A stretch of DNA of 64,000 bases from Lactobacillus hominis DSM 23910 = CRBIP 24.179. GTDB taxonomy: Bacteria; Bacillota; Bacilli; Lactobacillales; Lactobacillaceae. Made by a program: the position numbers and the translations under genes. This document shows positions 13,830-31,681 of this stretch, in pieces (the stretch's first letter is position 1; every line of letters starts with the position of its first letter). A model generated the notes under the pieces. That model worked only from the letters and a program-made list of their open reading frames with translations. It had not been told where the DNA came from and did no database searches. Location of the stretch: contig NZ_CAKE01000002.1 of NCBI RefSeq assembly GCF_000296835.1, positions 248,001 through 312,000 on the forward strand, read 5' to 3'.

Positions 13830-13849
13830 GAAATCCCCCGTTAGTAATT

Positions 13850-13877
13850 AGTATAAATATAATTTGCGTTTAAACAA
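13850..13877 (-). promoter_or_regulatory. promoter of the GH25 gene
   Basis: Minus-strand TTGTTT (13872-13877), 16-base spacer and TATACT (13850-13855), 20 bases before the start codon. Confidence 0.5.
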
Positions 13878-13885
13878 AATCTTTT

Positions 13886-15902: not shown

Positions 15903-15932
15903 AAAAAAGAGTCGCACATGCGACTCTTTTTA
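15903..15932 (-). terminator. terminator after the SLAP-sunset gene
   Basis: Perfect 12-bp stem AAAAGAGTCGCA / TGCGACTCTTTT with a 2-base loop, ending about 10 bases after the stop. Confidence 0.9.
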
Positions 15933-15939
15933 AAACTTA

Positions 15940-16464: not shown

Positions 16465-16541
16465 CACTTATTCCTCCGATAATTAAAATCTCAATCTAGC
16501 TATAATTTTAGCGCTATCTCTCAAGATTTAAAAGAGAAATT

Positions 16542-17741
16542 TTATCGAACGATAACTGCATAGCGTCCATCAATCCATTGACTTCCGCCTAAGTTATAAA
16601 AGGTTCGCCCATTATTCTTAGCTGTAGCAAAATATTTCCAGCTTGTGCCGTGCTTTAAGCGGCGTCCAGAAAAATGAGTTCCGTTTGGATTATTCCACAT
16701 GTTAACACTGTAGCCAGGTCGATACTTAATTCTAATTACGCCACTCTTTTTGGTTTCTGAACCAACAGTTGGATTGCTAGTTGAATAAAAAGCAATATAT
16801 TGACCATCAACCCACTTATTATTACCCAAGTTATACCAAGTCTTACCATTTTGAATTGCAACCTGGATTACCGCATGAGTCGTGCCATCTTTAAGACGCT
16901 GACCACTAAATCTTGCAGATCTGCCATAGCCGTTCCAAACATTAACAGCACCATTTTTTCTATATTTAATAATGATCTTGCCTTGAATATCTTGTGCAGG
17001 ATATGACGTTACGCCTAATATCTTAGAAAGTTCGCCAGGAAAGTTTGTAATAATTCCTTCAATATTGCCTTGCTGAACTAATTTTCTCATAGTGGCTGGA
17101 TCATTAGCACCGAAAACTAAATATTTCTTACCATGCATCTTTAAGTAATCTGAGATATTTTGATTATAGTAATAACTTGCAAAATATTGATTATCGCCAA
17201 TATCACGGTAGTTACGTCCTAATAATGTCCGCGGAATGTTAGGTGCAAGCTGAGCTAAAAGTTTTAATGATGGCTGCGAAAATGATTCAAACAAAATTCT
17301 GTTCTGTAATCCATAGCTATTAATCAAGTTAACTAATTGTCGCTCCATCCCTGTTGGTGCGGTTTCATTTTTAGTTTCTACCATAAATTTAACATTTGGA
17401 TTATTCTTATATCTTTCGAAAACTTCTTTGAGCGTGTGAATAGGTTCGCCAGATTTATTACGATATTTTAATAAATCTCTATACTTGCTAGATGTAATAT
17501 TTACGTTCGCACCAAAATTATTCTTTAAATTATTATCATGGCTTACCACTAATACGCCGTCGGCAGTTCTATGAATATCCATTTCAATATAATTTGCTCT
17601 TTGAGCAACTGCCCGATCATATGCTTGAAAACTATGCTCGGCATACTTGCCTGCTTCATTATCGCCACGATGCGCAATATTAGTAAAACCAAATAAAAAT
17701 GGTAAAGCAGCCACTCCTAATATAACCTTGGGAAATTTCAT
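16542..17741 (-). CDS. surface glycerophosphodiester phosphodiesterase (GDPD) with two SLAP/SH3-like modules
   Basis: The ATG at 17741, with GGAGG upstream, gives 399 residues. The frame to 17753 begins with a TTG inside the SD. A hydrophobic leader (PKVILGVAALPFLFGFTNIA) leads straight into the catalytic core IAHRGDN. Then come YIEMDIHRTADGVLVVSHDNNL, KFMVETKN and GIITNFPGEL, so both catalytic His residues and the metal-binding Glu/Asp are present. GDPDs release glycerol-3-phosphate from glycerophosphodiesters. Outside the cell this could act on deacylated lipids or poly-glycerophosphate teichoic acid. Two wall-binding modules occupy about 255-399. A paralogue of the same length lies at 20950-22149 in opposite orientation. 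A -10 TATAAT lies at 17809-17814. Confidence 0.9.
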   Translation of the reverse strand: MKFPKVILGVAALPFLFGFTNIAHRGDNEAGKYAEHSFQAYDRAVAQRANYIEMDIHRTADGVLVVSHDNNLKNNFGANVNITSSKYRDLLKYRNKSGEPIHTLKEVFERYKNNPNVKFMVETKNETAPTGMERQLVNLINSYGLQNRILFESFSQPSLKLLAQLAPNIPRTLLGRNYRDIGDNQYFASYYYNQNISDYLKMHGKKYLVFGANDPATMRKLVQQGNIEGIITNFPGELSKILGVTSYPAQDIQGKIIIKYRKNGAVNVWNGYGRSARFSGQRLKDGTTHAVIQVAIQNGKTWYNLGNNKWVDGQYIAFYSTSNPTVGSETKKSGVIRIKYRPGYSVNMWNNPNGTHFSGRRLKHGTSWKYFATAKNNGRTFYNLGGSQWIDGRYAVIVR

Positions 17742-17808
17742 TTTTTCCTCCAAATAAAAAAATCCTAATGATATCTACATTAAGATACGACGTAAATTTT
17801 CTTAAAAG

Positions 17809-17814
17809 ATTATA
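17809..17814 (-). promoter_or_regulatory. -10 element for the GDPD gene
   Basis: TATAAT on the minus strand, about 68 bases before the ATG at 17741. No clear -35 is seen. Confidence 0.4.
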
Positions 17815-17858
17815 CCCTATTTTAGTTATTTTTACCATACTATTTTTATCATTTAATT

Positions 17859-17875
17859 GAGGTCGCAACGAGGTC
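17859..17875 (+). repeat. GAGGTC-N5-GAGGTC direct repeat upstream of the integrase
   Basis: GAGGTC at 17859-17864 and 17870-17875, spaced 11 bp and preceded by AATT. The same arrangement (GAGGTC-N5-GAGGCC) follows the integrase at 19039-19055. These look like recombinase arm- or core-type binding sites. This is inference from symmetry of position. Confidence 0.5.
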
Positions 17876-17889
17876 ATTTTGATAAGATA

Positions 17890-17916
17890 TTTCTTTTAAT
17901 TATTAATTAAAAGAAA
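17890..17916. promoter_or_regulatory. 27-bp perfect palindrome overlapping the integrase ribosome binding site
   Basis: TTTCTTTTAATTA, a central T, then TAATTAAAAGAAA. Its right arm runs into the SD (AAAGGA, 17914-17919). It could be an operator, or a hairpin that hides the SD. Confidence 0.6.
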
Positions 17917-17925
17917 GGAAATATT

Positions 17926-19032
17926 ATGGGAGTATATTTAGATAAAAACGGGACATGGTTTGTTAACAAGTCATGGACCGATACTGGCGGAAAGAGACAT
18001 TTCAAAACGAAGCGTGGCTTTAAAACCAAGAAAGAAGGACAGTTATTTGAAGCTGAACTGATCTTGCAAATAAAAAACAATGTCTATAATTCTGATAATC
18101 CTCGCTTCAGTTCGTACTTTCATGAATGGGTTAAGACTTATAAAGGCGAACTTGATAAAAAGACTAATGCAGTAAGACCTAACACATTGCGCGAATATTT
18201 ACTTGATGAAAAACGGATCATCTATGGCTTAGCTAATCTAAAAATAAAAGATATCACTCGCTTTCATTATCAAAATTTTATTAATGAATTCGGCCAATCT
18301 CATGCACAAATCACAGTTAAAAAACTCAACAATCATATTCGAGCATGTGTGAAATATGCTATAGAAGATGGATTAATTCAACGCGATTTTACCAAAGGAG
18401 TTCAACTTAGCTTCAATCCTAAAAATACACGTCAATTAACCTATCTCGAAGATTATCAATTAAAGCAATTATTGCATCACCTCCTTAAAATTCGAAATTC
18501 TAATTATTCTGGCGTTTACATGATTATTACAATTATGTATACAGGTCTGCGTGAAAGCGAAGCAGCTGGCCTTACATGGGACTGCGTGAACTTTGATAAT
18601 TTAACCTTAAATATTAATAAAGCATGGGATTATAAACAAAAAGACTATTCACCAACTAAGAATAAGTCTTCTCAACGAATTATCGGAATGTCACCCAAAT
18701 TAGCATCCTTACTTAAAGAACTCAAAGATAATCATCCCACCAAAGTTTTTTGGTCAAAAAGCTATCAGACACTCCCTCAATCGCGGAGTTTAATTGACAC
18801 TTTAAGACGCAGTTTAAAAGAATTAAATATTAATGCATCAGGTGTGCATATCCATTCTTTACGTCATTCTCAAGTAGCAATTTTGCTTAATGCGGACATC
18901 AATATTTACGATATTGCGCAGCGTTTAGGACATGAGGATATCAAAACGACACAAAAAATTTATGCTTATCAATTTAAAAAGCACCAAGCCAAGGTTAATA
19001 AAAAAATCAACCAAGCACTTGATGCTATTTAA
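17926..19032 (+). CDS. tyrosine recombinase / phage-type integrase
   Basis: 368 residues. The N-terminal arm-DNA-binding domain (about 1-55, GTWFVNKSWTDTGGKRHFKTKRGFKTKKEG) is of the phage/ICE integrase type. A SAM-like core-binding domain spans about 60-160 and the catalytic domain about 170-365. Catalytic residues are visible: Arg in TGLRESEA, H-x-x-R in IHSLRHSQ, His in RLGHEDIKTTQ and Tyr in KIYAYQ. The protein therefore looks intact and active. No phage or conjugation genes accompany it. It lies between the first GDPD and the silent S-layer gene, about 80 bases outside the left inverted repeat. It is flanked by paired GAGGTC motifs. It may be a remnant of an element or the recombinase of the S-layer switch. 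Confidence 0.93.
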   Translation: MGVYLDKNGTWFVNKSWTDTGGKRHFKTKRGFKTKKEGQLFEAELILQIKNNVYNSDNPRFSSYFHEWVKTYKGELDKKTNAVRPNTLREYLLDEKRIIYGLANLKIKDITRFHYQNFINEFGQSHAQITVKKLNNHIRACVKYAIEDGLIQRDFTKGVQLSFNPKNTRQLTYLEDYQLKQLLHHLLKIRNSNYSGVYMIITIMYTGLRESEAAGLTWDCVNFDNLTLNINKAWDYKQKDYSPTKNKSSQRIIGMSPKLASLLKELKDNHPTKVFWSKSYQTLPQSRSLIDTLRRSLKELNINASGVHIHSLRHSQVAILLNADINIYDIAQRLGHEDIKTTQKIYAYQFKKHQAKVNKKINQALDAI

Positions 19033-19038
19033 TAAATT

Positions 19039-19055
19039 GAGGTCAATTTGAGGCC
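19039..19055 (+). repeat. GAGGTC-N5-GAGGCC direct repeat downstream of the integrase
   Basis: Same 11-bp spacing and same AATT prefix as the pair at 17859-17875. It starts 7 bases after the integrase stop. Confidence 0.5.
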
Positions 19056-19109
19056 AAGATCTAAAAATTTTCCTTATCTTTCTTTTAATAATACCTACCC
19101 TGCAGCAGT

Positions 19110-19239
19110 TTTATAGACCTCTGATCTTTGATGAAGGGATTTTGTACAATTATGGGCGATTTCACGATGAGCCTTTTGCCTATTACATTTGTATTATCAA
19201 GGAGGAAAAGACCACATGAAGAAAAATGTTAAATATTTA
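19110..19239. repeat. left arm of 130-bp perfect inverted repeat (S-layer switch)
   Basis: All 130 bases equal the reverse complement of 26868-26997 (coordinate sum 46107, no gaps). With two mismatches the identity runs on to 19274. The repeat covers the 5' leader, the SD AAGGAGG and the first codons of the S-layer gene. Confidence 0.97.
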
Positions 19240-20865
19240 GGTGCTGCTGCAGCTGCATTGTTAGCTGTTGCTCCCGTAGTTGCTTCAACTACTGTTGCTA
19301 ATGCTGATACTGTTGTAGGCGACGATATGGCTGCTGGTTCTACTACACCAGCTAACCCACAATATCCAGCAATTACTCTCGATGGCTCGGTTAATGCAAA
19401 CGTTAATACTAGCGTTAGTTCATTAACTTCAGTATCAGCAGTTAAAAATGCTTTAAAGGTTTCCGGTGTTAACGGTGCATTTATTGCTGGTGTTCAATCT
19501 GCAAAGGTTTCTGAGCAAAATAATGGTGGAAACGCTGTAAGTTCTTTACAAGAAGGTAAAACTTACTGGGTTCAAACTACTATTACTCTTGCTGGATTAG
19601 AAGCTAACAAGACTTACACTATTAACGGTAAGGAATACAAGTCTGATGCTCGTGGTGTTATTAATGGCTTAAACAACGATGGTAAAGGTGTATTTGTTGC
19701 TTACAGCTTTGTTGCACAAAACCCAGAAGCAGTTGGTAACCCATACTTCTCATTCAATGGTGCTAACATTGCAAATGGCTCTTTTGTAAACAACAAATTT
19801 GATATTCCTGCAAATGTTTCAGACATTAAGAACATTTGGACTGGTACTACTGCTAAACTTCTTGCCAGATATGAAGCAGCTAACACTAGTATCCAACCAG
19901 CAACTATCACTACTACTGATGCTCAAATTAAGGAACAATTAGCTAACCAAGGTGTTTCAGTTGCTGATAATGGTGCAATTTCTGCTAAAGCACAAAGCTT
20001 TAACGTAACTTTAACCGCAGTTAACCCAGTTAATAACTCATTGACTGCTACTGTTAAATTACAATTCAACAGAAACACTGCATTCCAATTATACCCAATG
20101 ATTCGTTATGAAAATAACTACATTCAACAAGGTGGACATAACTTCCAACAAGTTCCTGCTAACAAGTTGGCATTTAAGGTTAACTCACCAGAAGCTAAGG
20201 CAATTGCTGCAAATCCAGCTAAAGGATTTACTGCTACTACCACTGCTGATGGCACTTCTGGTTTAATTGATATGCACGTTTTGAGTAACAAGGTTGACGC
20301 TTCAACTGTTGGTGTATACCCTGTAACTGTTTACGCAACTAATGCTAATGGTTACAAGACCACTTACAGCTTCAACGTAACTATTTTACCAGTTGCTGCA
20401 TCAAACACTCGTACTGCGGTTGTTAACTACAAGCCAGGTTACGGTGTAAACATTTGGAACGTATTAAGTTCTACTAGTGTTGCATTTACTGGTAACCGTC
20501 AAGCTTCAGGCTCAACTGTAACTATTTACGGTGAAAAGACCGTTAACGGAACTAAGTACTACCAAATCAATAAGGAAGGTACTCAATTCATCCAAGCACA
20601 ATACATCGACGGTGAAACTACCACTCCATCTACTAAACCTTCAACTTCATCAAACGAAGAAAAGGTTTCAGGTGTAGCAACTGTTGTTTACAACGGTCGT
20701 GGTGGTGTAAAACTTCTTAACGGTGAAGGTAAATACCAATCACAAGTTGTTAAGAACCGTTCTGCATGGAAAGTCTTTGCTAAGAAGACTATCAATGGTC
20801 GTGAAATGTACCGTATCGGTAACGACAACCAATGGATTCCAGCTCAATACGTTAACTTCCGTTAA
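19216..20865 (+). CDS. slpB: S-layer protein, silent (promoter-less) copy in this orientation
   Basis: The ATG at 19216 follows SD AAGGAGG and gives 549 residues. A frame from a TTG at 19189 would read through the SD. The signal peptide is typical for lactobacillar S-layer proteins (MKKNVKYLGAAAAALLAVAPV...VANA). A Val/Thr/Asn-rich self-assembly region (about 31-395) ends in an Ig-like strand set, VGVYPVTVYATNANGYKTTYSFNVTI. Two wall-binding modules then follow: YKPGYGVNIWNVLSS... and YNGRGGVKLLNGEGKYQ...WIPAQYVNFR. It is codon-biased like highly expressed genes. I find no strong promoter in the 80 bases between the integrase and the repeat. The symbol is provisional, by analogy with the L. 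acidophilus silent gene. Confidence 0.88.
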   Translation: MKKNVKYLGAAAAALLAVAPVVASTTVANADTVVGDDMAAGSTTPANPQYPAITLDGSVNANVNTSVSSLTSVSAVKNALKVSGVNGAFIAGVQSAKVSEQNNGGNAVSSLQEGKTYWVQTTITLAGLEANKTYTINGKEYKSDARGVINGLNNDGKGVFVAYSFVAQNPEAVGNPYFSFNGANIANGSFVNNKFDIPANVSDIKNIWTGTTAKLLARYEAANTSIQPATITTTDAQIKEQLANQGVSVADNGAISAKAQSFNVTLTAVNPVNNSLTATVKLQFNRNTAFQLYPMIRYENNYIQQGGHNFQQVPANKLAFKVNSPEAKAIAANPAKGFTATTTADGTSGLIDMHVLSNKVDASTVGVYPVTVYATNANGYKTTYSFNVTILPVAASNTRTAVVNYKPGYGVNIWNVLSSTSVAFTGNRQASGSTVTIYGEKTVNGTKYYQINKEGTQFIQAQYIDGETTTPSTKPSTSSNEEKVSGVATVVYNGRGGVKLLNGEGKYQSQVVKNRSAWKVFAKKTINGREMYRIGNDNQWIPAQYVNFR

Positions 20866-20889
20866 TAATTGAGAATCAATTCAAGTAAA

Positions 20890-20921
20890 AAAGGTCGACT
20901 CTTTTAGAGGCGGCTTTTTTC
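20890..20921 (+). terminator. terminator after the left S-layer gene
   Basis: Imperfect hairpin GTCGACTC-TTTTA-GAGGCGGC followed by TTTTTT. It resembles the terminator of the right copy at 25204-25237. Confidence 0.75.
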
Positions 20922-20949
20922 ATGCAATTTATTAATTTTGTGAGGAAAA

Positions 20950-22149
20950 ATGAAAGCTAAAAAATGTTTAGTTGCTTTGGCAGCTTTACCATTTTTATTC
21001 GGTTTTACTAATATTGCATACCGTGGAGATAATCAAAATGGAAAGTATGCTGAACATTCATACCAAGCTTACGATCGCGCGTTGACCGAACAGGCTAACT
21101 ATTTAGAGTTAGACATTCATAAGACAAGCGATAATGTGCTAGTAGTAAGTCATGACAACAATCTCAGTAGATTATTTGGTGTAGATTTAGACATTAATAA
21201 AACTCCTTACGCCAAATTAGCTCAATATCGTAACCAAGCTGGCGAACCAGTTCATACTCTTGCAGAAGTATTCAATCGTTACAAAAATGATCCAAATATC
21301 AAATTTATGATTGAAACTAAAAACGTGGGATCAGCAACAGGTATGGAAAATGAGCTAGTGAACTTAGTTAGACAATATGGGATGCAAAATCGTGTTTTAT
21401 TTGAGTCGTTTTCTATTCCATCTTTAAATGCTTTAGCACAATTAGCGCCAGAAATTCCACGAACTCAATTATCAGGTAGCTATCAAAACATTGGCGACAG
21501 TCAATATTATGCGAATGGCTATTTTGATTCAAATGTAAGTGCCTATCTTAAGAGCCAAGGTAAGAAATATTTGCTCTGGGGCGTCGATAATGCAGATAAA
21601 ATGCGTCAATTGGTTAATTCTGGTCAAATTGACGGTATTATCACTAATTATCCTGGCACTTTATCTAAAGTTCTTGGAGTAACGCAATATCCAGCTAAAA
21701 ATATTGATGGAACGATAATTGTTAAATACAAGAATAATTATTCAGTAAATCTATGGAATGGTTATGGTAAAAATGCTCATTTCAGTGGTTTGCGCGTTAA
21801 AAACGGTACGTCGCACCATGTAACTCAAGTGGCAATTGAAAATGGCAAGACTTGGTATAAGCTTGACAATAATAAATGGATTGATGGGCAATACGTTGTA
21901 TCCTATGCAGCAAATAAAAACTCTAATAGCGTACCAGTCCAATCTCACGGAGTAATCCAAATTAAGTACAAACCTGGCTTTGGCGTTAACTTATGGGGCA
22001 GCCCTCAAGGTACACACTATTTAGGACGTAGATTAAAGCATGGCAGCCGTTGGAAATACATGGCTACTGCTAATTACAACGGACGTACTTTTTACAATTT
22101 AGGCGGAAGCCAATGGATTGATGGAAAATATGTTATAAAAATTAACTAA
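20950..22149 (+). CDS. GDPD-like surface protein with two SLAP/SH3-like modules, first catalytic His replaced by Tyr
   Basis: 399 residues, the same length and domain order as the GDPD at 16542-17741: hydrophobic leader (CLVALAALPFLFGFTNIA), GDPD domain and two C-terminal wall-binding modules (about 255-399). The core reads IAYRGDN instead of IAHRGDN, and IHKTSDNVLVVSHDNNL instead of IHRTADGVLVVSHDNNL. The HRG histidine, a conserved catalytic residue in this family, is therefore Tyr (codon TAC), while the second His and the ELD acidic pair remain. It may be a poorly active or non-catalytic binding protein. It lies inside the invertible segment, 29 bases after the terminator of the silent S-layer gene. 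The SD is GTGAGG. Confidence 0.85.
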   Translation: MKAKKCLVALAALPFLFGFTNIAYRGDNQNGKYAEHSYQAYDRALTEQANYLELDIHKTSDNVLVVSHDNNLSRLFGVDLDINKTPYAKLAQYRNQAGEPVHTLAEVFNRYKNDPNIKFMIETKNVGSATGMENELVNLVRQYGMQNRVLFESFSIPSLNALAQLAPEIPRTQLSGSYQNIGDSQYYANGYFDSNVSAYLKSQGKKYLLWGVDNADKMRQLVNSGQIDGIITNYPGTLSKVLGVTQYPAKNIDGTIIVKYKNNYSVNLWNGYGKNAHFSGLRVKNGTSHHVTQVAIENGKTWYKLDNNKWIDGQYVVSYAANKNSNSVPVQSHGVIQIKYKPGFGVNLWGSPQGTHYLGRRLKHGSRWKYMATANYNGRTFYNLGGSQWIDGKYVIKIN

Positions 22150-22191
22150 ATAAAAATCCCTCGAAACGTAATGCTTCAAGGGATTTTTTGT

Positions 22192-22713
22192 TTAATCTTT
22201 TAGCAAATCCGCAATAGTTTCATCATTTGGGTGATAAGATTTGTATTGCTTTAAAATGCTAATTAACATATCAAAATTTTGGTCCCAAAAGTCAAAATTA
22301 TCCTGATATGATTTTACTTTATTTAGGTCATTATAGTTATCTTTTACATAAATACTAGGTTTTGCAAAATTTCCGTTAGTATATCGTTGATAATCATGAT
22401 GGTAAAGAATGAATAATATTTCTATTTCCGGTCTAGTAGTAAGATTAATGACTTCAGAAATTTTACGTTCATACGCTTTCGGCACGTTAAAATTCTCTGC
22501 TCGTGAATCAAGAATTCGATAAACGCGTATCTTTCTGTCAAAACTTTTATCCAAAAATTGGCTTGCAAAACGTTTACCGTTACGACACCGAATAATTTCT
22601 TCTTGTAACATGTCTTGACGATTAAACTTAAGTGCATCATGAGCAAGCAAAACATCAATAATTGCTCGTTCAGTGTTTCCTTCCGTAATAATGGCGATTA
22701 ATTCGTTACTCAT
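22192..22713 (-). CDS. small TOPRIM/RloB-like partner protein of the upstream AAA ATPase
   Basis: The ATG at 22713 overlaps the end of the ATPase gene by 8 bases and gives 173 residues. A longer frame to 22803 would overlap the ATPase widely and has no SD. The N-terminus LIAIITEGNTERAIIDVLL matches the beta1-Glu-helix of TOPRIM nucleases (compare IFCEGETEENYF in RloB). A later RVYRILDSRAENF strand may hold the acidic pair, but the second Asp of DxD is not evident. PEIEILFILYHHDYQRY resembles the EIW helix of RloB. Genes of this size next to an AAA15-type ATPase are known from RloAB, AbiL and PARIS-like phage defence. I cannot place it in a named family. Confidence 0.6.
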   Translation of the reverse strand: MSNELIAIITEGNTERAIIDVLLAHDALKFNRQDMLQEEIIRCRNGKRFASQFLDKSFDRKIRVYRILDSRAENFNVPKAYERKISEVINLTTRPEIEILFILYHHDYQRYTNGNFAKPSIYVKDNYNDLNKVKSYQDNFDFWDQNFDMLISILKQYKSYHPNDETIADLLKD

Positions 22714-23938
22714 GCTTATCTTGCACCACTTTCTTTGTAGCCTTTTTAAGTGCCAAATAAGCAGAGTATTCAGGAGCCGTGCCTCCAAGATAATCCGATT
22801 CAAATACTTCGGCTTTCTTTAGATCACTTCTTACATTAGCAGCAGAATATCTTTGCAGTTCAATCTTATCATTTCTCTTGGCAACATAGACTTCGTCGCC
22901 TCTATCCAAATCATTTAATAATTCAGAATAATGGGTACTAAAAATTAACGTCGCCCGATTAATATTAATCTTTGGGTCAGAAAAGTCTTCGATGAATGAG
23001 CGTACAATTGCATGATTAAAGTGATTTTCTAACTCATCAACAAACATTATGCCACCTGTTTTTAAAGCAATCATTACACGTCCATAGAGAGTGATACCTT
23101 TAGCTGTTCCTGAAGACAGATAATGCTGTATTACATCAAATCCTGTCGCAGTAATTTCTTCTTCTGCATTTTTAAATTTTAAATGATAGATAATCTTTTT
23201 AATGTGATTAGCATCATCAGTTTCTGATTCAATATTTAAGTACTCAATAGAAGGATCTAAAAAGTTCAATATTGCAACAGGTACTTTTTCCTCATCGTAA
23301 AATAGAGCATTGATATTGGCTAACATTAAGTTGTCGAATATTAATTGGCAATGATAATCTTCTTTCGTCAAAATCAACCTAAATATTGAATCATCAGGTG
23401 ATAAGATCGAGGAAGCCAACTCTCCCAAGTCTTTTCGGTTATATAAAGGCTCAATATTGTCAAAATTCAATATTTCTTTTTTAGTTAATCTATCTTTAAA
23501 TTCCTTACGATAAATTAATTCATTATCAATGATCCATTTTTTATTTAGTTTATCTCTAGTTTGCTTAAAAGTTACTACATCTTTATAAAGCAATCGATCT
23601 GTACCATAAAAATAAGTAGTAATAGTAATAGGCTGGTCACCAACTAAGATGTCTTGTAGAGAAGTTTGGTCAATTGAATTTCCATATAGCAATAATTGAA
23701 GCATACCAATAATCGTTCTCATAATTGTTGTTTTACCCGTAGCATTTTTTCCTACGATCGTGATCAAATTATTAATCCATAAATTACCCGCAAGATTTGT
23801 TAATTGATCTCGAGTATTTTCTGTGATACGGGCATCACTCATTAGAGAGAACTCTAATCCATTTTTGAAAAGTGGATGATTTTCTATTTTCATTTTTAGA
23901 AAATATAAATTGTTATCAACTGTGGTTATATTTTTCAT
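22706..23938 (-). CDS. AAA15/OLD-like ATPase, first gene of a putative defence pair
   Basis: 410 residues. LKMKIENHPLF starts the SMC-like strand. Walker A is ITIVGKNATGKTTIM (about residue 60-70). A signature-like YLSSGTAKGITLYGR, Walker B GIMFVDELENHF and the switch His in LIFSTHYSELL all occur in order in the C-terminal half. This is the layout of overcoming-lysogeny-defect-like and RloA/AriA-type ATPases, which hold or activate a nuclease partner. The TOPRIM-like gene overlaps its 3' end, so translation is coupled. The pair is transcribed from the region at 23957-24015, which has a 15-bp palindrome and a 14-bp tandem repeat. It is located inside the invertible S-layer segment. Confidence 0.85.
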   Translation of the reverse strand: MKNITTVDNNLYFLKMKIENHPLFKNGLEFSLMSDARITENTRDQLTNLAGNLWINNLITIVGKNATGKTTIMRTIIGMLQLLLYGNSIDQTSLQDILVGDQPITITTYFYGTDRLLYKDVVTFKQTRDKLNKKWIIDNELIYRKEFKDRLTKKEILNFDNIEPLYNRKDLGELASSILSPDDSIFRLILTKEDYHCQLIFDNLMLANINALFYDEEKVPVAILNFLDPSIEYLNIESETDDANHIKKIIYHLKFKNAEEEITATGFDVIQHYLSSGTAKGITLYGRVMIALKTGGIMFVDELENHFNHAIVRSFIEDFSDPKININRATLIFSTHYSELLNDLDRGDEVYVAKRNDKIELQRYSAANVRSDLKKAEVFESDYLGGTAPEYSAYLALKKATKKVVQDKHE

Positions 23939-23956
23939 CGCTTATTCTCCCTAGTG

Positions 23957-23984
23957 TGTATTATGTAGTATGTATTATGTAGTA
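23957..23984. repeat. two tandem 14-bp repeats in the ATPase promoter region
   Basis: TGTATTATGTAGTA occurs twice head to tail, a few bases before the SD of the ATPase gene. It may be an operator or simply slippage. Confidence 0.7.
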
Positions 23985-24000
23985 TTTACAATTTATATTT

Positions 24001-24015
24001 TACACAATTTGTGTA
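24001..24015. promoter_or_regulatory. 15-bp palindrome, candidate operator of the ATPase pair
   Basis: TACACAA-T-TTGTGTA, a perfect 7-bp inverted repeat about 65 bases before the ATG at 23938, where a -35 box would be expected. No regulator gene is adjacent. Confidence 0.5.
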
Positions 24016-24045
24016 TTTTTATACAGATAAAACGTTTAAAAATGT

Positions 24046-24081
24046 AAAAAGAGATTCAAAAATTAATTGAATCTCTTTTTT
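24046..24081 (-). terminator. terminator after the acyltransferase gene
   Basis: GAGATTCAA / TTGAATCTC stem with A/T runs, 5 bases after the stop at 24086 on the minus strand. Confidence 0.85.
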
Positions 24082-24085
24082 CTGT

Positions 24086-25174
24086 CTACATCAAATGCAT
24101 ATTAGCCCAAGATATGTACGATAATCCCCATGCTAAAAGTCCTGAAATAATAAAGATAATTATTGACATAACCGGAACTGCAATAAAAGTATTGGGTATC
24201 AATTCAAATATACGGCAGTTTCTAGCCGCTATATGAACAAACATAAAATGAATCAAATAAATTCCAAACGTTAATTCCGATGTCTTTAGCAATACTTTCT
24301 TAAAAGCGGTATCTTTAGTCCAGTCAATCTTTGAACCAAGTTCTTTCATTGCCACAAAGATTGCTACGCTAGTTAAAGCAACTGGGATCGACATGTATTG
24401 GTAAAATGGCAAGATTGGCGTATTGAACTTCATTGACAGCCATTGAGTTGCGCCAAATGACCAAATAAGTCCAAAAATGCCAAAGCCGTAAATCCAATAG
24501 CGATTCTTGCGACTTAGCTTAAGCTGGCTTAAATAATATCCGGCAACAAAGTAAGTTGGAAAGCTCAAAGTAAAATTGAAATGAGTATTGATATTCAAAC
24601 GATACAAGCTATTCATAATAGTTTGCACAACAACTGGCATATGATAATGCGCTGATACGTCGCCATAAGTTCCAAAAAAAGTAGTCAAGAAGACTGAAAA
24701 GAAGGCTGCCAAGACTAAGAAATACCTAGTTAAACCAATATTAGCAGTAATCTTTCTTAGAAATGGGACAATTAAGTAAAGTCCAATAATCATTGGCAAG
24801 AACCACAAGTGAGTATAGCCTTTAACTAAGACGTCAAGCGTTGCCATCTTGCTGTAGCCTTCAAAAAAGTAGCAGTAAATGGCGTAAAAAATATCCCAAA
24901 AGATAAAGGCAGTTACAATCCGCCAAATATTCTTGGTAAACAAATGCTTCACAGTGATCTTTCTTTTAGGGTCTAAAAACAATGCTCCTGAGATCATCAC
25001 AAAGATTGGTACGCTCCAGCGACTAATTGCATCCCAAAAGTTTACGCCCATCCAGGATAAAGTATGGATGTTTTTAGCATAAAAAGGCTGCTGGCTTGCT
25101 GCATGGATTAAGATAACTGCAAAAGTTGCACTTACGCGTAGTAGATCCAAATAATGGATTCGATGTTTTTCCAT
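24086..25174 (-). CDS. acyltransferase 3 family membrane protein
   Basis: The ATG at 25174 with GGAGG upstream gives 362 residues. A TTG at 25186 is part of the SD context. The N-terminal HYLDLLRVSATFAVILIHAASQ carries the conserved Arg and His of the family, with VPIFVMISGALFL after it. The protein has about ten membrane helices. Such enzymes O-acylate sugars of wall polysaccharide, teichoic acid or lipids, using acyl donors from the cytoplasm. It lies inside the invertible segment directly behind the expressed S-layer gene's terminator, and the leader before its start resembles that before the GDPD at 20950. This suggests that the cassette ends were duplicated. The acceptor is unknown. Confidence 0.85.
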   Translation of the reverse strand: MEKHRIHYLDLLRVSATFAVILIHAASQQPFYAKNIHTLSWMGVNFWDAISRWSVPIFVMISGALFLDPKRKITVKHLFTKNIWRIVTAFIFWDIFYAIYCYFFEGYSKMATLDVLVKGYTHLWFLPMIIGLYLIVPFLRKITANIGLTRYFLVLAAFFSVFLTTFFGTYGDVSAHYHMPVVVQTIMNSLYRLNINTHFNFTLSFPTYFVAGYYLSQLKLSRKNRYWIYGFGIFGLIWSFGATQWLSMKFNTPILPFYQYMSIPVALTSVAIFVAMKELGSKIDWTKDTAFKKVLLKTSELTFGIYLIHFMFVHIAARNCRIFELIPNTFIAVPVMSIIIFIISGLLAWGLSYISWANMHLM

Positions 25175-25203
25175 TATTTCCTCCAAAAGATAATAATTTG
25201 CAT

Positions 25204-25237
25204 AAAAAAAGCCGTCTCCGAGGAGCCGACTTTTTTA
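25204..25237 (-). terminator. terminator after the right S-layer gene
   Basis: Minus-strand hairpin GTCGGCTCC-TC-GGAGACGGC followed by TTTTTTT. Confidence 0.8.
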
Positions 25238-25256
25238 TTTGAATCAAAACTCAATA

Positions 25257-26891
25257 TTAACGGAATTGTGCGTATTGAGCTGGGATCCATTGGTTTTGAG
25301 TACCAAGACGGTAGTAAGTCTTACCGTTGATAGTCTTCTTAGCAAATACCTTGTATGCTGCGTTCTTTGATACGTAGTTACCAGTACCGTAGTGACCATC
25401 TTGGTTTACTAAAGCAACCTTACCACGACCGTTGTATTTAACAACGATTACACCGCTCACTGCTTCTTCCTTAGAAGAATCAGTTGAAGGCTTAGATGGG
25501 GTAACAGCTTGTTCACCGTCTACGTATTGAGCTTGGATGTAGTCATTGCTGTTCTTTGCATTGATTTGGTAGTATTTAACACCATTAACAGTCTTTTCAC
25601 CAAAGATAGTAACAGTTTCGCCATCCATTACACGTTTACCTGAGAATGAAACGTTAGTTGAGCTTAATACGTTCCAAACGTTTACACCGTAACCAGCCTT
25701 GTACTTAACAGTAGCTTTACGTCCTTCACCTGGAAGTGCAGGATTTACAACAACATTAAATGAAAGAGTTGTAGTGTAACCATTAGGGTTAGTAGCAGTT
25801 AAAGTTACAGGGTAAACACCTACAGTGTTAGGATCAATCTTGTTTGAAAGAACTTTAAGATCAATTTGACCAGAGTTCTTATCATCAATAGTGTATGCCT
25901 TTAACTTAAGAGCTGCGATTGGATCAGTAGCTAAAGCCTTAGCTTCTTTTGAACCAACTGTAGTAGGTTGAACTGTAACACCTGCACCAGTATTACCTTG
26001 TTTTACCAAAGTAGCATCTTCGTAGATTGCTGGGTAAACTTTTGAATTTACATCTTTATTAAATTGAACTTTAGCAGTAGCAGTTTTATTGTTTGCAGGA
26101 TTAGTAGCAGTTACAGTTAAGTAGAAACTAGTTGCGCTTGCTGGGATAGTGTTGTTGCTTGTTAAAGTAACACCTTGGTTAGCTAATTGAGCCTTAACAT
26201 CACCGTAGTTAATAATTAATGGCTTGTTAGTACCGTCAACATTAACCATTGGTTGAACTGCACCAGCAACTGTCTTTTCTAAGTCTGCAACGGTTTCACC
26301 AGCAGTGAAGCTTTGAGCCTTGTATGCAAATGCACCTTCAGTAAGGTTTACGTGGTTAGCAGTAGTTAAGTCTACAAAGTATGGTGCACCTTGAACAGCT
26401 GCATCATAAGCACTAAAGTTAAGAGTTACGTAAACATTTGGGATAACACCATTTTGGTTAGCAGTAGCAGAAACGCTTTCGCTACCTTGTTTGATAGTGT
26501 AAGTCTTGTTAGCTTCTAAGCCACCAAGTGCAACAGAAGCTTGTAATTGGTAATTTTGACCAGCTTCTAAACTAGTTACACCAACAGTTGGAGCGTTAAC
26601 ATTAACAACTGCAGCTTTAGAAACACCAACAACTTTTGCGTTGGAACCGTTAACTGATAATGCACTTTCAACTGCTGAAGCAGTAGTTAAAGTAGAAACT
26701 TGGGTGTTAGCAGCTTGTGAATTCATAGTGCTTGCAACGTTGATAACTGGATCAGTAGCTGGCTTAGTAGAAGTGTCAGCTGGTTTTCCATCCAAGTTGA
26801 TTGCAGCATTAGCAACACCTGAAACAGCAACTGGAGCAACAGCTAATAATGCAGCTGCAGCAGCACTTAAATATTTAACATTTTTCTTCAT
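25257..26891 (-). CDS. slpA: S-layer protein, promoter-linked (expressed) copy
   Basis: The ATG at 26891 follows SD AAGGAGG and gives 544 residues. The leader MKKNVKYLSAAAAALLAVAPV...VANA is nearly the same as in the left copy. The middle region (about 30-390) is different in sequence but alike in composition and in its Ig-like end (VGVYPVTLTATNPNGYTTTLSFNVVV). The C-terminus has the same two modules (YKAGYGVNVWNVLSS... and YNGRGKVALVNQDG...WIPAQYAQFR). S-layer proteins form a crystalline outer coat, held here by the C-terminal modules. A strong promoter and a long leader of about 190 nt lie upstream at 27089-27116. In this orientation it should be the coat protein made. The symbol is provisional. 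Confidence 0.9.
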   Translation of the reverse strand: MKKNVKYLSAAAAALLAVAPVAVSGVANAAINLDGKPADTSTKPATDPVINVASTMNSQAANTQVSTLTTASAVESALSVNGSNAKVVGVSKAAVVNVNAPTVGVTSLEAGQNYQLQASVALGGLEANKTYTIKQGSESVSATANQNGVIPNVYVTLNFSAYDAAVQGAPYFVDLTTANHVNLTEGAFAYKAQSFTAGETVADLEKTVAGAVQPMVNVDGTNKPLIINYGDVKAQLANQGVTLTSNNTIPASATSFYLTVTATNPANNKTATAKVQFNKDVNSKVYPAIYEDATLVKQGNTGAGVTVQPTTVGSKEAKALATDPIAALKLKAYTIDDKNSGQIDLKVLSNKIDPNTVGVYPVTLTATNPNGYTTTLSFNVVVNPALPGEGRKATVKYKAGYGVNVWNVLSSTNVSFSGKRVMDGETVTIFGEKTVNGVKYYQINAKNSNDYIQAQYVDGEQAVTPSKPSTDSSKEEAVSGVIVVKYNGRGKVALVNQDGHYGTGNYVSKNAAYKVFAKKTINGKTYYRLGTQNQWIPAQYAQFR

Positions 26892-26997
26892 GTGGTCTTT
26901 TCCTCCTTGATAATACAAATGTAATAGGCAAAAGGCTCATCGTGAAATCGCCCATAATTGTACAAAATCCCTTCATCAAAGATCAGAGGTCTATAAA
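26868..26997. repeat. right arm of 130-bp perfect inverted repeat (S-layer switch)
   Basis: Reverse complement of 19110-19239 with no mismatch. The repeat ends at 26997, 92 bases before the -10 of the promoter, so the promoter is outside the invertible part. Confidence 0.97.
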
Positions 26998-27088
26998 TCC
27001 TCTGAGGTAGTCAGTCCTTGATAAGAAATCCGCATGCTGTACAGGCATCACGCCTGAAGCATTTGTCCTATTACTTACCACGACTCAT

Positions 27089-27116
27089 ATTATATCTTGT
27101 TTCTCGCTTTTTGCAA
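27089..27116 (-). promoter_or_regulatory. strong S-layer promoter
   Basis: Minus-strand TTGCAA (27111-27116), 16-base spacer and perfect TATAAT (27089-27094). Transcription from about 27082 gives a leader of about 190 nt, as is usual for stable S-layer mRNAs. Confidence 0.85.
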
Positions 27117-27211
27117 AGTTTACTTGCATTTTTTATATTTTTTAATGTTGTTGTAATATTCACAAAGACGAATTTTATGCAATTTTTCCTATACGCTTAT
27201 CAAGTGTAAGC

Positions 27212-27242
27212 AAAAAAGAATCCCATAATACTGGGATTCTTC
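27212..27242 (-). terminator. terminator after the DUF1659/DUF2922 genes
   Basis: AGAATCCCA / TGGGATTCT stem with a T run on the minus strand. Confidence 0.85.
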
Positions 27243-27375
27243 TCACTTGGTTAATGTTTACGCAAGAGTTTTAAGACCTGTTTAATTTGATAAAAAATTA
27301 TTTCAAAAATATTTCAAAATATACCAAATATTCCAAAATAAGTTATTTAATTCTCTTATTTCTTCAAAAATTAGT

Positions 27376-27615
27376 CTACATTGATTTAGAATCATTAAAC
27401 ACAGAAGTAGTAGTGCGTTCAATATATTGAGCAGACTGAGCTTTGGTATAAAGATCTACTCCCTTTCTTTCAAAAACATTTGCATTGGCAATCTTGTCCA
27501 TTGCATCCCTTACTTGAACTTCTTCTAAATCGCCCGCTGCTTCTGGCACGTTAATTGAAGCTTTCTTGTTATCACTAGTTACGAAAGTTAATCTTAAAGT
27601 CTTAGTTGTTGGCAT
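27376..27615 (-). CDS. DUF2922 family small protein
   Basis: 79 residues: TKTLRLTFVTSDNKKASINVPEA followed by VQVRDAMDKIANANVF, the usual DUF2922 pattern (beta strand pair and a helix, ending in the variable tail). The function of the family is unknown. In Firmicutes it is nearly always paired with a DUF1659 gene, as here. The SD AGGAGA precedes the ATG. About 75 bases separate it from the upstream gene, and this gap contains a 20-bp direct repeat. The terminator lies at 27212-27242. Confidence 0.8.
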   Translation of the reverse strand: MPTTKTLRLTFVTSDNKKASINVPEAAGDLEEVQVRDAMDKIANANVFERKGVDLYTKAQSAQYIERTTTSVFNDSKSM

Positions 27616-27637
27616 TTTGTTTTCTCTCCTATTTCTT

Positions 27638-27680
27638 CTATAAATATGCTTTATTTTTTTCTATAAATATGCTTTATTTT
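27638..27680. repeat. 20-bp direct repeat, period 23
   Basis: CTATAAATATGCTTTATTTT at 27638-27657 and 27661-27680, between the two small genes. No function is evident. Confidence 0.85.
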
Positions 27681-27690
27681 CGAACTAAAA

Positions 27691-27912
27691 TTATTCGTTT
27701 GCGTCTAATTCAAGTTCATGATGTTGAATTAACATAGCGCTTTGCAAGCCATCGTCTTTTTGAAGCGTAGATAATGCACGACCTACTTGAGCCACTTTTT
27801 GTGCATCTGCATCTAGCTTCAAGTTCTTAAAAGTACGTTCTTTAAGGTTGTCTTTGTACTTAGCACCACTAAAGCCGAATTTTACTGATTGTTCTACTAA
27901 ATTAGTCTTCAT
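27691..27912 (-). CDS. DUF1659-like small protein
   Basis: The ATG at 27912 with AGAGG upstream gives 73 residues. An upstream in-frame start at 27954 has no SD and would add 14 residues. The sequence TNLVEQSVKFGFSGAKYKDNLKERTFKNLKLDADAQKVAQVGRALSTL fits the DUF1659 pattern (strand, linker, helix), and its pairing with DUF2922 supports this. Function is unknown. A perfect 10-bp palindrome TCACCGGTGA (27951-27960) lies 38 bases upstream. Confidence 0.65.
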   Translation of the reverse strand: MKTNLVEQSVKFGFSGAKYKDNLKERTFKNLKLDADAQKVAQVGRALSTLQKDDGLQSAMLIQHHELELDANE

Positions 27913-28037
27913 TTTTCTACCTCTATTATTAATTAATTTTTGTAAGAACTTCACCGGTGATTTGCCTTACACTATTACTAACGAAATAGATCTTAATTTT
28001 GGCTCAACTTTTTAAAGAAAGTTCAAAAAATAGTTTT

Positions 28038-28046
28038 TGTTATAAT
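28038..28046 (+). promoter_or_regulatory. extended -10 promoter of the TPR-like lipoprotein gene
   Basis: TGT-TATAAT, about 52 bases before the ATG at 28098. Confidence 0.6.
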
Positions 28047-28097
28047 GAAAAGTGTAAAATCAAACTTGATCAATAAGTTAAGGAGGATTTATATATA

Positions 28098-28994
28098 ATG
28101 AAAAAATCCAAAATTTGGGTAGCTTTAGTTGCCCTCTTCGTAGTTTTAGTCGGAGCTGGATGCAGTAAACAATCTAACTCTTCTGGCGACTACTCTACTT
28201 TAATGAAGCAAGGTAAAACCTATGTAGCCGACGAAAAGTATTCCCAAGCTGAAGATAAATTCGAACAAGCTCATCAAGTTAAAGCCACTGATGAATCAGA
28301 TGTTTATGCTAAACAAGCTAATCACATGTCTGATGCTAAAGACAGCATTAGCGAATATAACTTTAGCGAAGCTTTAAAAGATTTAAATAAGGTAGTTTAT
28401 GCAAACAATGGCTACTCAGTAATGACTAACCGTGCTAAGAAGCAATACAAGACGATTAGCCGTGTTCAAAGCAATATTAAAAACGAGATTAATCCATTAT
28501 ATGACAATGCAAAATCAGCTTATAAAGACGGTAACTACCAACAGGCTGAGCAATACTGCATCCAAATCTTAGACTTACCTTATATTAATGGTAAATACTA
28601 CAAACAAATCAGAAATAAAGTTAACGACTTGTTAGATGATGCAAAAGATGCTAACGGCGATAGCAAGAGCGATGAAAATTCTTCATCTAAGACTAACAGT
28701 TCAAACTCTAATGAAGAAAACAAATCTTCAGATACCGAAAAAGAAAATAATAATTCCTCAACTTCATCTAACGCAAACAGTTCATCTTCAAACTCAAATA
28801 ATATGACTGTCGGCGGTCAAGCAGTTACTGCTCGTGTAATTGCTCAAGTACGTGATAAATTAAGTTCTATGGGCGTTTCTACTTCATCTTGGAGCGATCA
28901 AGACGTAGTTAACTTCATGAACTCTGCAGCTAAAAATGGCCACACTACTATTGATTCTTACACTCAAAGCGACGTAAATAACTTTAATAAATAA
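28098..28994 (+). CDS. lipoprotein with TPR-like helical domain and Ser/Asn-rich linker
   Basis: 298 residues. The lipoprotein signal ends in VGAGC (Cys at 22). Residues about 35-185 hold helical repeats with TPR character (YSTLMKQGKTYVADEKYSQAEDKFEQAHQ and NPLYDNAKSAYKDGNYQQAEQYC). A low-complexity Ser/Asn/Glu linker follows (about 190-240). The last 60 residues (VTARVIAQVRDKLSSMGVSTSSWSDQDVVNFMNSAAKNGHTTIDSYTQSDVNNF) form a small compact domain. The linker would let this domain reach through the wall. The SD is AAGGAGG. Function is not known. Confidence 0.75.
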   Translation: MKKSKIWVALVALFVVLVGAGCSKQSNSSGDYSTLMKQGKTYVADEKYSQAEDKFEQAHQVKATDESDVYAKQANHMSDAKDSISEYNFSEALKDLNKVVYANNGYSVMTNRAKKQYKTISRVQSNIKNEINPLYDNAKSAYKDGNYQQAEQYCIQILDLPYINGKYYKQIRNKVNDLLDDAKDANGDSKSDENSSSKTNSSNSNEENKSSDTEKENNNSSTSSNANSSSSNSNNMTVGGQAVTARVIAQVRDKLSSMGVSTSSWSDQDVVNFMNSAAKNGHTTIDSYTQSDVNNFNK

Positions 28995-29082
28995 GAAGAA
29001 AAGTTGCTTTTAGAATGATTTCAATGTAAGATTATATTGAATTTTTGTACTAGTACGACATTATTTAAAGGAGCTCTTAACT

Positions 29083-29508
29083 TTGACTGAAGAAAGCAAA
29101 AAAACTGCCGCTGAAAAAACGGAAAAAGACGAAAAGTTCCAAGTTGTCATCCCAGAAGCTAACCGCGTTGAGATGCCAGCAACCGAATTTGCAGTTCAAC
29201 CAGATTATTTAAAAGTTTTTGCTAACTTTTATATTGCAAAATTTGAACAAGCTGACCTCGAAATCATGGATACTTTTGATGGTAACCACGACGTTGTTGA
29301 AATTAATACCTACCTTACTAACAACGAAGCATTTTCTCGTCAAAATTTGATTAAGCATGTTTTGAACATCCATGCTCAACGATTTGAAGATATTTTAGCT
29401 AATATCAAAAAAGAAACTGGTATAGATCCTCAAAGTATGAAGACATATGAGGATTGGGATAAGTGGTATACTGATCGTCGCAATAATATTCCACAAACTA
29501 TGTCTTAA
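29083..29508 (+). CDS. conserved-looking cytoplasmic protein of unknown function
   Basis: 141 residues starting at TTG, with AAAGGAG ending nine bases upstream. After a Lys/Glu-rich N-terminus (TEESKKTAAEKTEKDEKF) comes an acidic, helical protein without signal or membrane segment (FANFYIAKFEQADLEIMDTF, NLIKHVLNIHAQRFEDILANIKKE). I do not recognise the family. It lies between the lipoprotein and kup, and has a strong terminator at 29554-29580, so it is probably monocistronic. Confidence 0.6.
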   Translation: MTEESKKTAAEKTEKDEKFQVVIPEANRVEMPATEFAVQPDYLKVFANFYIAKFEQADLEIMDTFDGNHDVVEINTYLTNNEAFSRQNLIKHVLNIHAQRFEDILANIKKETGIDPQSMKTYEDWDKWYTDRRNNIPQTMS

Positions 29509-29553
29509 AGGCTTGAAACTTTAAGCAAAATATATAAGAATAAAGTAACTAAA

Positions 29554-29580
29554 AAAGAATGCAATGGCATTCTTTTTTTG
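29554..29580 (+). terminator. terminator after the unknown protein
   Basis: GAATGC-AATG-GCATTC followed by TTTTTTT. Confidence 0.85.
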
Positions 29581-29631
29581 ATTTTTATATTATCTTGATA
29601 AGCTGATAGCTTTTATTAGGAGTATTTATTC

Positions 29632-31671
29632 ATGAATAATAAACGAAAAAATCTCACCGCAGCAGGTTTACTGATTGCTATTGGGATTGTGTATGGTGAT
29701 ATCGGAACGAGTCCACTGTACGTTATGAAGTCCATTGTTGCCGGAAACGGCGGTATTGGCAATGTTAACCGCGAATTTATTATTGGTTCGATTTCCTTAG
29801 TTTTATGGACGGTTACCCTGCTTACTACCTTACAAACTGTGATTATTGCTTTAAAGGCAACTAACCATGGCGAAGGTGGTATCTTTGCCCTTTATACTTT
29901 AATTCGTAAACGTAAAAAATGGTTGGTGCTTCCTGCTTTAATTGGAGGAGCTGCTATCTTAGCTGATGGTACTTTAACACCAGCCGTTACTGTTACGACA
30001 GCGATTGAAGGATTAAAAGGGATTGAATTTGGCAAAGGCAATATTCCGGTTAACACTCAAAGTACGGTTATTGCTATTACTGTTGTGATTTTGCTGGTTC
30101 TATTTTCTATTCAACGAATGGGAACAAGCATTATTGGTAAGGCATTCGGGCCAATCATGTTTGTCTGGTTCACTTTCTTAGGAATCGTCGGAATCATGAA
30201 TATGGCTGGCGACTGGTCAATTCTTGAAGCCCTCAATCCTTACTATGCTATTAAGCTTTTATTTAGTCCGTATAACAAGGCCGGAATTTTTATCTTAGGT
30301 TCCATCTTCCTTGCTACTACCGGTGCTGAAGCCTTATATTCTGATGTAGGACACGTGGGAAAAGGCAACATTATCGGTTCTTGGCCTTACGTTTTTGTAT
30401 GTTTGTCACTGAACTACTTCGGCCAAGGCGTTTGGATTTTGAATAACCCAACTTACAATGCAGGTAATGGTGATTTTAATCCATTTTTTGAAATCATTCC
30501 GCAAGACATTCGTTTAGCCGCAATTGTTTTAGCTACTATTGCCGCTGTTATTGCTTCACAAGCCTTAATCACTGGTTCGTTTACATTAGTTGCTGAAGCC
30601 AGTGGTTTGAAGTTCTTACCTAGAATGAATATTGTTTATCCGTCGACTGAAAAGGGACAAATTTATATTCCATCTGTTAATAAGATGATTTGTGTAGCCA
30701 CTATTTCAATCGTCTTATTCTTCCAAACTTCGGCTCACATGGAAGCAGCTTATGGTCTTTCTATCACGATTTCAATGCTAATGACGACCATCTTGCTATA
30801 TGAATGGCTAGTCATGAAAGGCATCAACTGGTTCTGGAACTGGCTATTTCTTATTTTCTTCGGCTTTTTAGACATTATGTTTATGGCCGCAAGCTTGAGC
30901 AAGTTTACCCATGGCGGTTACGTATCATTAGTTATCGCTGGTTTTATCGGAATTGTAATGTACATCTGGTTCTACGGAAACAAGATCCGCGACAAGCGTG
31001 AATCACGCAATGCATATGTGCGTTTAGATGAATATACCGATATGCTGACTGACTTAAGTCACGATGAAGACTATCCAACTTACGCCACCAACTTAGTTTA
31101 CATGGCTAAAGTTAAGTACAATAAATTTATCAAACGAGAAATTTTATACTCGATCTTGGATAAACGTCCTAAGCGTGCTAAGGCATATTGGTTCGTTACA
31201 GTTAACGTAACTAACGAGCCATTTACTGCTGAATATGCTGTTAACACTTATGGCACTAAGAACGTAATTAACGTTCAGCTTTTCCTAGGATTTAAGCAAC
31301 AACAAAGAGTTAATGTTTACTTGCGTCAAATTGTGCATGACTTAATTGCTGACGGTACAATCGAATCACAGCCCCAAGAATACACGACCACTCCCGGACG
31401 TGATGTCGGAGACTTCTCATTCGTTATTGTTAACGACGTAATTAGCCCTCAAACTCAATTACGTAACTACGAAAAGTTCTTAGTAGAAGCTCGTGTATGG
31501 CTCCAAAACCTGTCTTCTAACCCTGCTTCTTGGTTTGGGTTAGATTATGCAGACACCGTCATTGAACGTGTCCCATTGATCTTAGGTGACCAACACAAGC
31601 AGCAAATCACTCACATTGCTCCCAAGAAATACGAGCAAATGAAAAAGAAAATCCAAGAAGGTCAAATTTAA
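29632..31671 (+). CDS. kup: Kup/HAK potassium uptake protein
   Basis: 679 residues, the normal length. The first helix and loop carry IGIVYGDIGTSPLYVMKSI, the family hallmark, followed by NHGEGGIFALYTLI and a GALFADGTLTPAVTV-like motif (AAILADGTLTPAVTV). About 12 membrane helices run to residue 450, followed by a hydrophilic cytoplasmic C-terminus of about 220 residues. Kup imports K+ with protons and matters in acid or low-K+ conditions. Lactobacilli often carry several copies. The SD AGGAG precedes the ATG. It is monocistronic. Confidence 0.96.
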   Translation: MNNKRKNLTAAGLLIAIGIVYGDIGTSPLYVMKSIVAGNGGIGNVNREFIIGSISLVLWTVTLLTTLQTVIIALKATNHGEGGIFALYTLIRKRKKWLVLPALIGGAAILADGTLTPAVTVTTAIEGLKGIEFGKGNIPVNTQSTVIAITVVILLVLFSIQRMGTSIIGKAFGPIMFVWFTFLGIVGIMNMAGDWSILEALNPYYAIKLLFSPYNKAGIFILGSIFLATTGAEALYSDVGHVGKGNIIGSWPYVFVCLSLNYFGQGVWILNNPTYNAGNGDFNPFFEIIPQDIRLAAIVLATIAAVIASQALITGSFTLVAEASGLKFLPRMNIVYPSTEKGQIYIPSVNKMICVATISIVLFFQTSAHMEAAYGLSITISMLMTTILLYEWLVMKGINWFWNWLFLIFFGFLDIMFMAASLSKFTHGGYVSLVIAGFIGIVMYIWFYGNKIRDKRESRNAYVRLDEYTDMLTDLSHDEDYPTYATNLVYMAKVKYNKFIKREILYSILDKRPKRAKAYWFVTVNVTNEPFTAEYAVNTYGTKNVINVQLFLGFKQQQRVNVYLRQIVHDLIADGTIESQPQEYTTTPGRDVGDFSFVIVNDVISPQTQLRNYEKFLVEARVWLQNLSSNPASWFGLDYADTVIERVPLILGDQHKQQITHIAPKKYEQMKKKIQEGQI

Positions 31672-31681
31672 TTAGATAAGT

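Follow-up and report, generated by a model that had tools for sequence, protein, structure and literature searches.

The window analyzed here, a stretch of 64,000 nucleotides from Lactobacillus hominis DSM 23910, contains two different surface-layer (S-layer) protein genes that face each other, as an earlier note on this DNA had described. They enclose a segment bordered by inverted repeats, with a promoter-like sequence outside its right end and a gene for a phage-type integrase outside its left end. The gene on the integrase side, slpL (19216..20865, + strand), starts with an ATG at 19216, and the gene on the promoter side, slpR (25257..26891, − strand), with an ATG at 26891. Both were assigned from alignment and from the SlpA domain (PF03217), which was found above the cut-off in the two proteins. 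Overall, the proteins are 49% identical, with only 11–25 identities per 50 alignment columns in columns 51–350 versus 26–33 in columns 351–550. This column-wise distribution agrees with the shared wall-binding ends and divergent assembly regions that had been proposed for them. Using slpR as a query, no match was obtained among the PDB sequences.

Each of the two genes begins inside one copy of the inverted repeat. By repeat comparison, the left copy (19110..19239, + strand) and the reverse complement of the right copy (26868..26997, − strand) are the same at 130 of 130 positions, confirming the base-for-base identity claimed before, and this identity breaks off precisely at both borders of the 130 bp. 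When mismatches are tolerated, the arms extend over 185 nt at 95% identity. In the whole 1.93-Mb genome (36 contigs), the 130-bp sequence occurs twice, both times at the slp segment. The repeats do hold the leader, the Shine–Dalgarno (SD) sequence and the start codons, as had been stated: SD, ATG and the first 8 codons all lie within them. The locus therefore has the arrangement of the L. acidophilus type, with convergent and different slp genes whose identical leader and start form the inverted repeats.

The promoter-like sequence TTGCAA-16-TATAAT (27116–27089, − strand) is located 92 bp outside the right repeat. It matches the consensus at 10 of 12 positions, and three close relatives keep the right-hand TATAAT together with the sequence around it; on these two grounds, 27089..27116 is taken as the putative fixed promoter of the locus. 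The earlier note had called it the only strong promoter. Its position stands, but a second site with a 10/12 match is present within the integrase gene (18794–18823, + strand), so that "only" was a slight overstatement. Promoter-like sites in the window are not more frequent than in shuffled sequences (29 found, against a mean of 35.9). The left flank is the integrase gene in all four species that carry it at this locus, and a promoter is predicted on one side of the segment only. slpL is probably silent.

The locus was compared with those of three related species, namely G054 (the nearest of them, on two contigs), L. rodentium (G009) and G005 (on one contig each). The flanks are collinear, window positions 13042–19306 with contig C2 of G054 and 26802–31674 with its contig C10. 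Between window and G054, two interior stretches with an identity of about 80% (1778 and 1216 bp) are reversed with respect to the flanks, and the switch point is at the leader repeats. The block formed by slpR and an acyltransferase gene (PF01757 by domain match; 24086..25186, − strand), as well as an AAA ATPase gene, is reversed relative to the flanks in G054 when compared with the window. An slpR-like gene followed by the acyltransferase is found on the integrase side in G054, L. rodentium and G005 and on the promoter side in the window, a gene order that links the two in four species, while a different slp gene stands behind the promoter in all three relatives. The acyltransferases of the window and G054 share 95% identity over 221 residues, up to the end of the G054 contig. 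Matches of slpL to the integrase-side slp gene of G054 are weaker (68–70%) and run in the other direction, as expected of related slp genes. The 3′ end of the promoter-side slp gene of G054 is matched by the 3′ ends of both slpL (83.6% over 293 bp) and slpR (83.1% over 118 bp). Since the interior is reversed and the flanks are collinear, the segment has been inverted in evolution, and, as far as sequence comparison tells, both orientations exist, between species. A single orientation in all related genomes was looked for and was not found, and the opposite orientation of the interior in the relatives supports the earlier proposal that recombination between the repeats swaps the gene behind the promoter.

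The inversion type of the switch was thus recognized correctly in the earlier note, but it overlooked the integrase gene at 17926–19032, the arm-type repeats behind it and the position of the junction in the leader hairpin. The integrase gene (17926..19032, + strand) is an intact open reading frame (ORF) that ends 77 bp outside the left repeat. Domain matches and relatives identify the product as a tyrosine recombinase, a phage integrase with catalytic (PF00589, above the cut-off), core-binding and arm-binding (PF14657) domains, and make it the candidate invertase. R209, H310, R313, H336 and a tyrosine at 346 or 348 are present, which we take to be the catalytic R, H-x-x-R, H and Tyr positions. 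Among 75 Lactobacillus genomes, nine have a match at E ≤ 1e-70, and the four with at least 64% identity all have it beside an slp repeat. The ORF is intact in three of these four species. Between the window and G054, the proportion of nonsynonymous differences (pN) is 0.084 and that of synonymous differences (pS) is 0.728, with synonymous divergence (dS) near saturation, indicating purifying selection.

Other recombinases and origins were also considered. Serine recombinases (PF00239) gave no match in the genomes of the window species (G000), G054, G009 or G005, and a Hin-type invertase is therefore unlikely in these four. The possibility that the integrase belongs to an intact prophage was rejected: its neighbours are SLAP-domain and slp genes, and no phage gene was recognized beside it. 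A scan of IMG/VR for phages carrying a closely related integrase confirmed none.

The outer edge of the repeats is the 17-mer TTTATAGACCTCTGATC, which was found with at most one mismatch in exactly the four integrase genomes out of 75, in two copies each; the reversed 17-mer used as a control gave 0 sites versus 8. Sequence comparison of the four integrase species, which are related, showed that the two copies of each genome begin to agree at TTTATAG in 4/4, and in G005 the preceding base is also common to both copies. In L. rodentium, the two repeat copies show 3 differences over the 77 positions from the edge to CTATTAC, and additional ones past it. The left junction site of the window, AGCAG-TTTTATAG-ACCTCTG (19104..19123, + strand), lies half inside and half outside the repeat by sequence comparison. 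The right junction site, TCAGAGG-ATTTATAGA-CCTCTGA (26983..27005, − strand), was delimited by repeat comparison, folding and covariation and is at the same time the leader hairpin. The leaders of L. rodentium and G005 are 84–85% identical to that of the window. A 19-nt edge initially assigned to these two species was discarded as an artefact of a diverged block before the SD, and the edge was taken from alignments instead.

Two direct repeats, GAGGTCA/GAGGCCA (19039..19056, + strand), are candidate arm-type integrase sites. They lie between the integrase stop codon and the junction site in 4/4 species, at 51–53 bp from the site, and the first repeat has one change in L. rodentium. Searching the window for this arm motif with up to three mismatches gave 1 match where 0.16 would be expected; a match also turned up in 16 of 100 shuffles. 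Upstream of the integrase, two GAGGTC motifs (17859..17875, + strand) may form a second arm or an autoregulatory site; this pair is found in the window and G054, not in G009 or G005, and resembles the pair that forms the other arm in G011 (L073), a prophage-like relative. Across the window, the GAGGTC hexamer itself is about as frequent as expected (10 versus 9.57).

The integrases of G011 and of a second prophage-like relative, G030, adjoin tRNA-Arg genes. Aligned with the tRNA-Arg sites, the left slp sites agree at 11–13 of 20 positions and the right ones at 10–11 of 20, all in one register. A pattern fitted to the slp and tRNA-Arg sites matches the genome exactly at four positions, namely in the genes for tRNA-Trp, tRNA-Arg-CCT and tRNA-Arg-TCT and at the left slp site. 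With two mismatches, the same pattern is not above chance in the window alone (3 found, 1.96 expected). Rfam and tRNA scans of the window gave no matches. In G011, two equal-scoring integrase regions are found 40 kb apart (G011:C1:600784 and 640870), one of them beside tRNA-Arg, as in tandem prophages.

The promoter-side leader folds better than shuffled sequences, with a z-score of −2.8 and 1 of 200 shuffles as good. Covariation of the hairpin at its tip was evaluated in 16 sequences: 98.2% of 112 cells are paired, five of the seven pairs are changed on both sides, and the signal is far above that of slid controls. Three of five covariation measures, namely cells paired, both-side-changed cells (24 versus 9.3) and the covariation score, exceed all 500 shuffles, while the other two, pairs changed on both sides and pair types, were matched by 113 of 500. 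In the integrase group, the repeat edge sits in the loop of this hairpin. One hairpin arm comes from the promoter side and the second from the invertible segment, so that the hairpin would be restored after every flip. The junction dyad was also considered as a pure recombinase site, which is untenable alone, since the dyad covaries genus-wide, also in species without the integrase. It is thus first of all an RNA hairpin, and its conservation alone is no evidence for recombination.

Paired leaders also occur without the integrase. The leader search covered 61 genomes, of which 12 had two facing leaders on one contig within 12 kb, three of them with the integrase. Eight of the remaining nine were examined (G056, G025, G026, G047, G024, G058, G053 and G008; not G007). 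Their repeat edges lie 137–203 nt upstream of the ATG, in eight different places, those of G026 and G058 being approximate because the leader pairs are imperfect (163/175 and 126/141). The edge in the window and G054, at 106 nt upstream of the ATG, is nearer than in all eight. No PF00589 gene was found in these species among the matches listed, either on the slp contig (G025 and G026, the G025 contig ending less than 1 kb from the locus) or within 90 kb (the other six). PF00239 serine recombinases are present in five of the eight. G013, with one leader 85% identical to that of the window, has neither the 17-mer nor the integrase. The G008 locus (L068) has three slp leaders, with ATGs at 5860, 9894 and 13094, one facing the other two, where more than one inversion would be possible.

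Regarding the neighbourhood, SLAP-domain protein genes followed by the integrase are located to the left of the segment, and a short ORF and lipoprotein-like, Kup-like and pckA-like genes, with names read from the sequences, to the right. The cargo inside the segment comprises, besides the acyltransferase, a GDPD gene with an SlpA-like end downstream of slpL (20950..22149, + strand; GDPD above and SlpA below the cut-off) and an AbiLi-like AAA ATPase gene with an overlapping 203-aa ORF (22192..23938, − strand; domain and PADLOC matches). The ATPase matched in PADLOC with an E value of 1.6e-34 and has a G054 homologue at 84.7%, and the 203-aa ORF has no family; a phage-defence pair carried as cargo is possible. 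Two related GDPD genes are present on opposite strands, one outside (16542–17753) and one inside the segment (20950–22149), and they share a 184-nt stretch that is 72% complementary. The protein encoded at 15940–16467 (− strand) looks secreted and has a "sunset" domain (NF051437) at its C-terminus.

Read from its sequence, 19110–26997 is rather probably an invertible S-layer switch flipped by the adjacent domesticated prophage integrase, the inversion switch being much surer than its enzyme. The promoter would stay in place on the right together with the leader's 5′ half, and flipping the segment would change which slp gene, with its cargo, joins them, so that a cell would make one coat or the other depending on orientation. 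The adjacent tyrosine recombinase, a former prophage integrase, would make the flip: it would bind the arm-type repeats at 19039–19056, and strands would be exchanged in the TTTATAG centre of the two dyad sites at the outer repeat edges, on the promoter side in the hairpin loop. As to its history, we tentatively propose, with somewhat more doubt than conviction, that the S-layer locus captured an integrase from a temperate phage, one with relatives located at the anticodon arms of tRNA-Arg, and that this enzyme evolved into an invertase dedicated to coat switching. The DNA of the leader hairpin would serve as its crossover site, and each flip would restore the same leader in front of a different coat gene.

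Several observations weigh against a switch operated by this integrase. No arm repeats were recognized at the promoter-side site, and eight other PF00589 genes in the genome could act. The four integrase species are related, so the co-occurrence of enzyme and site does not represent four independent events, and the Kup tree leaves a single origin unsettled, with two changes on the best tree and one in 54% of the bootstrap trees. Of random stretches, 2% do as well as the best likeness of the left site to tRNA-Arg sites (13/20), which leaves a tRNA origin of the site only modestly supported. In the comparison of orientations, both G054 contigs terminate inside the segment, and slpL shares only 36–38% identity with the slp genes that stand behind the promoter in the three relatives, which means that the far end of the segment was also replaced. 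Further, the eight paired-leader species without a nearby integrase indicate that such a locus needs none. In them, the leader pairs from edge to ATG are identical in four cases and almost identical in one more, and the edges vary, as RecA-type homologous recombination between the repeats would have it; the window integrase would then be an old prophage leftover beside the locus. We regard this explanation as possible but rather doubtful, since the repeat edge falls at the same base in 4/4 integrase species. The window repeats, identical throughout, also fit it: full-length identity over 130 bp exceeds what a site-specific crossover needs and suggests that homologous exchange or conversion is involved as well, whereas in L. 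rodentium and G005 a stretch of diverged sequence precedes the SD, which implies that exchange has not homogenized the whole leader there. In these same two species, one leader variant is unlinked to the gene behind it. In the integrase gene of G005 (L059:6670-7737), the reading frame shifts at an A-run directly ahead of the codon for the catalytic tyrosine, with both sites intact, and this may be a real loss or a sequencing error; the intact ORFs of the other three species, the purifying selection and the constant place of the gene with its arm repeats nevertheless speak against a mere leftover.

It is also conceivable that switching has ended, with slpR fixed as the active gene and the order in the relatives reflecting one ancient inversion or a cassette exchange via the leaders. 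One genome of the species was compared, and the far-end slp gene differs between the window and its relatives, both of which would suit an ended switch. Nevertheless, we consider it very unlikely, since 130/130 identity of the repeats, despite a 15–16% leader difference from L. rodentium and G005, points to recent exchange, and the ORFs of slpL, slpR and the integrase are all intact.

Several known systems are comparable in some features to an integrase-operated switch. The integrase is 47–52% identical to those of the L. gasseri phages phi jlb1 and KC5a and of the prophage-like G011 and G030, and these have similar direct repeats (GGGGTCATTTGGGGGTCA-type) right after the gene, as in the window. 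Unlike these phage integrases, which serve phages and a tRNA site, the window enzyme would act on two inverted sites within the slp leaders. In the sap system of Campylobacter fetus, S-layer genes are likewise switched by inversion next to a single promoter; there the process is RecA-dependent and is not known to involve a dedicated integrase. In the fim switch, a short promoter element is flipped and the recombinases FimB and FimE are not known to have an arm-binding domain, whereas in the window genes would be flipped past a fixed promoter. Both have a tyrosine recombinase together with invertible DNA (for fim, PMC9993118).

The closest likeness in organization is to L. acidophilus slpA/slpB, with facing slp genes, near-identical leaders as inverted repeats and one outside promoter. 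This invertible segment was reportedly described by Boot et al. in 1996, and PMC4236617 lists work on the inversion among its references. That slpA/slpB inversion is established in L. acidophilus, as the earlier note had stated, is upheld by two papers: the slp locus of strain NCFM permits inversion, slpA inactivation leads to slpB expression via inversion and slpB is overexpressed in the ileum (PMC7858073), and relocation of SlpA to an inactive position is possible (PMC6176008). One of the eight genomes above, G047, shares the neighbourhood of the window (o29083 and Kup genes), and its Slp protein matches solved "S-layer protein" chains. By its SlpA sequence, G047 is presumably L. acidophilus. 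No PF00589 gene lies closer than 290 kb to its slp locus, and its repeat edge is 183 nt upstream of the ATG. The window group differs in that an integrase adjoins the locus, arm-type repeats are present and the repeat edge is fixed in the loop of the leader hairpin. No paper naming the recombinase of the lactobacillar slp switch was among the matches listed, judged by titles and the first lines of abstracts. Inversion of slp genes in lactobacilli is thus known, and what is new here is that a phage-type integrase lies next to the switch, together with arm repeats and a fixed site. The locus offers a specific candidate recombinase with its sites in harmless, culturable bacteria, which makes the question directly testable. 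If the proposal is true, a phage integrase has here become a switch for the cell surface, whereas related species apparently manage without a neighbouring enzyme.

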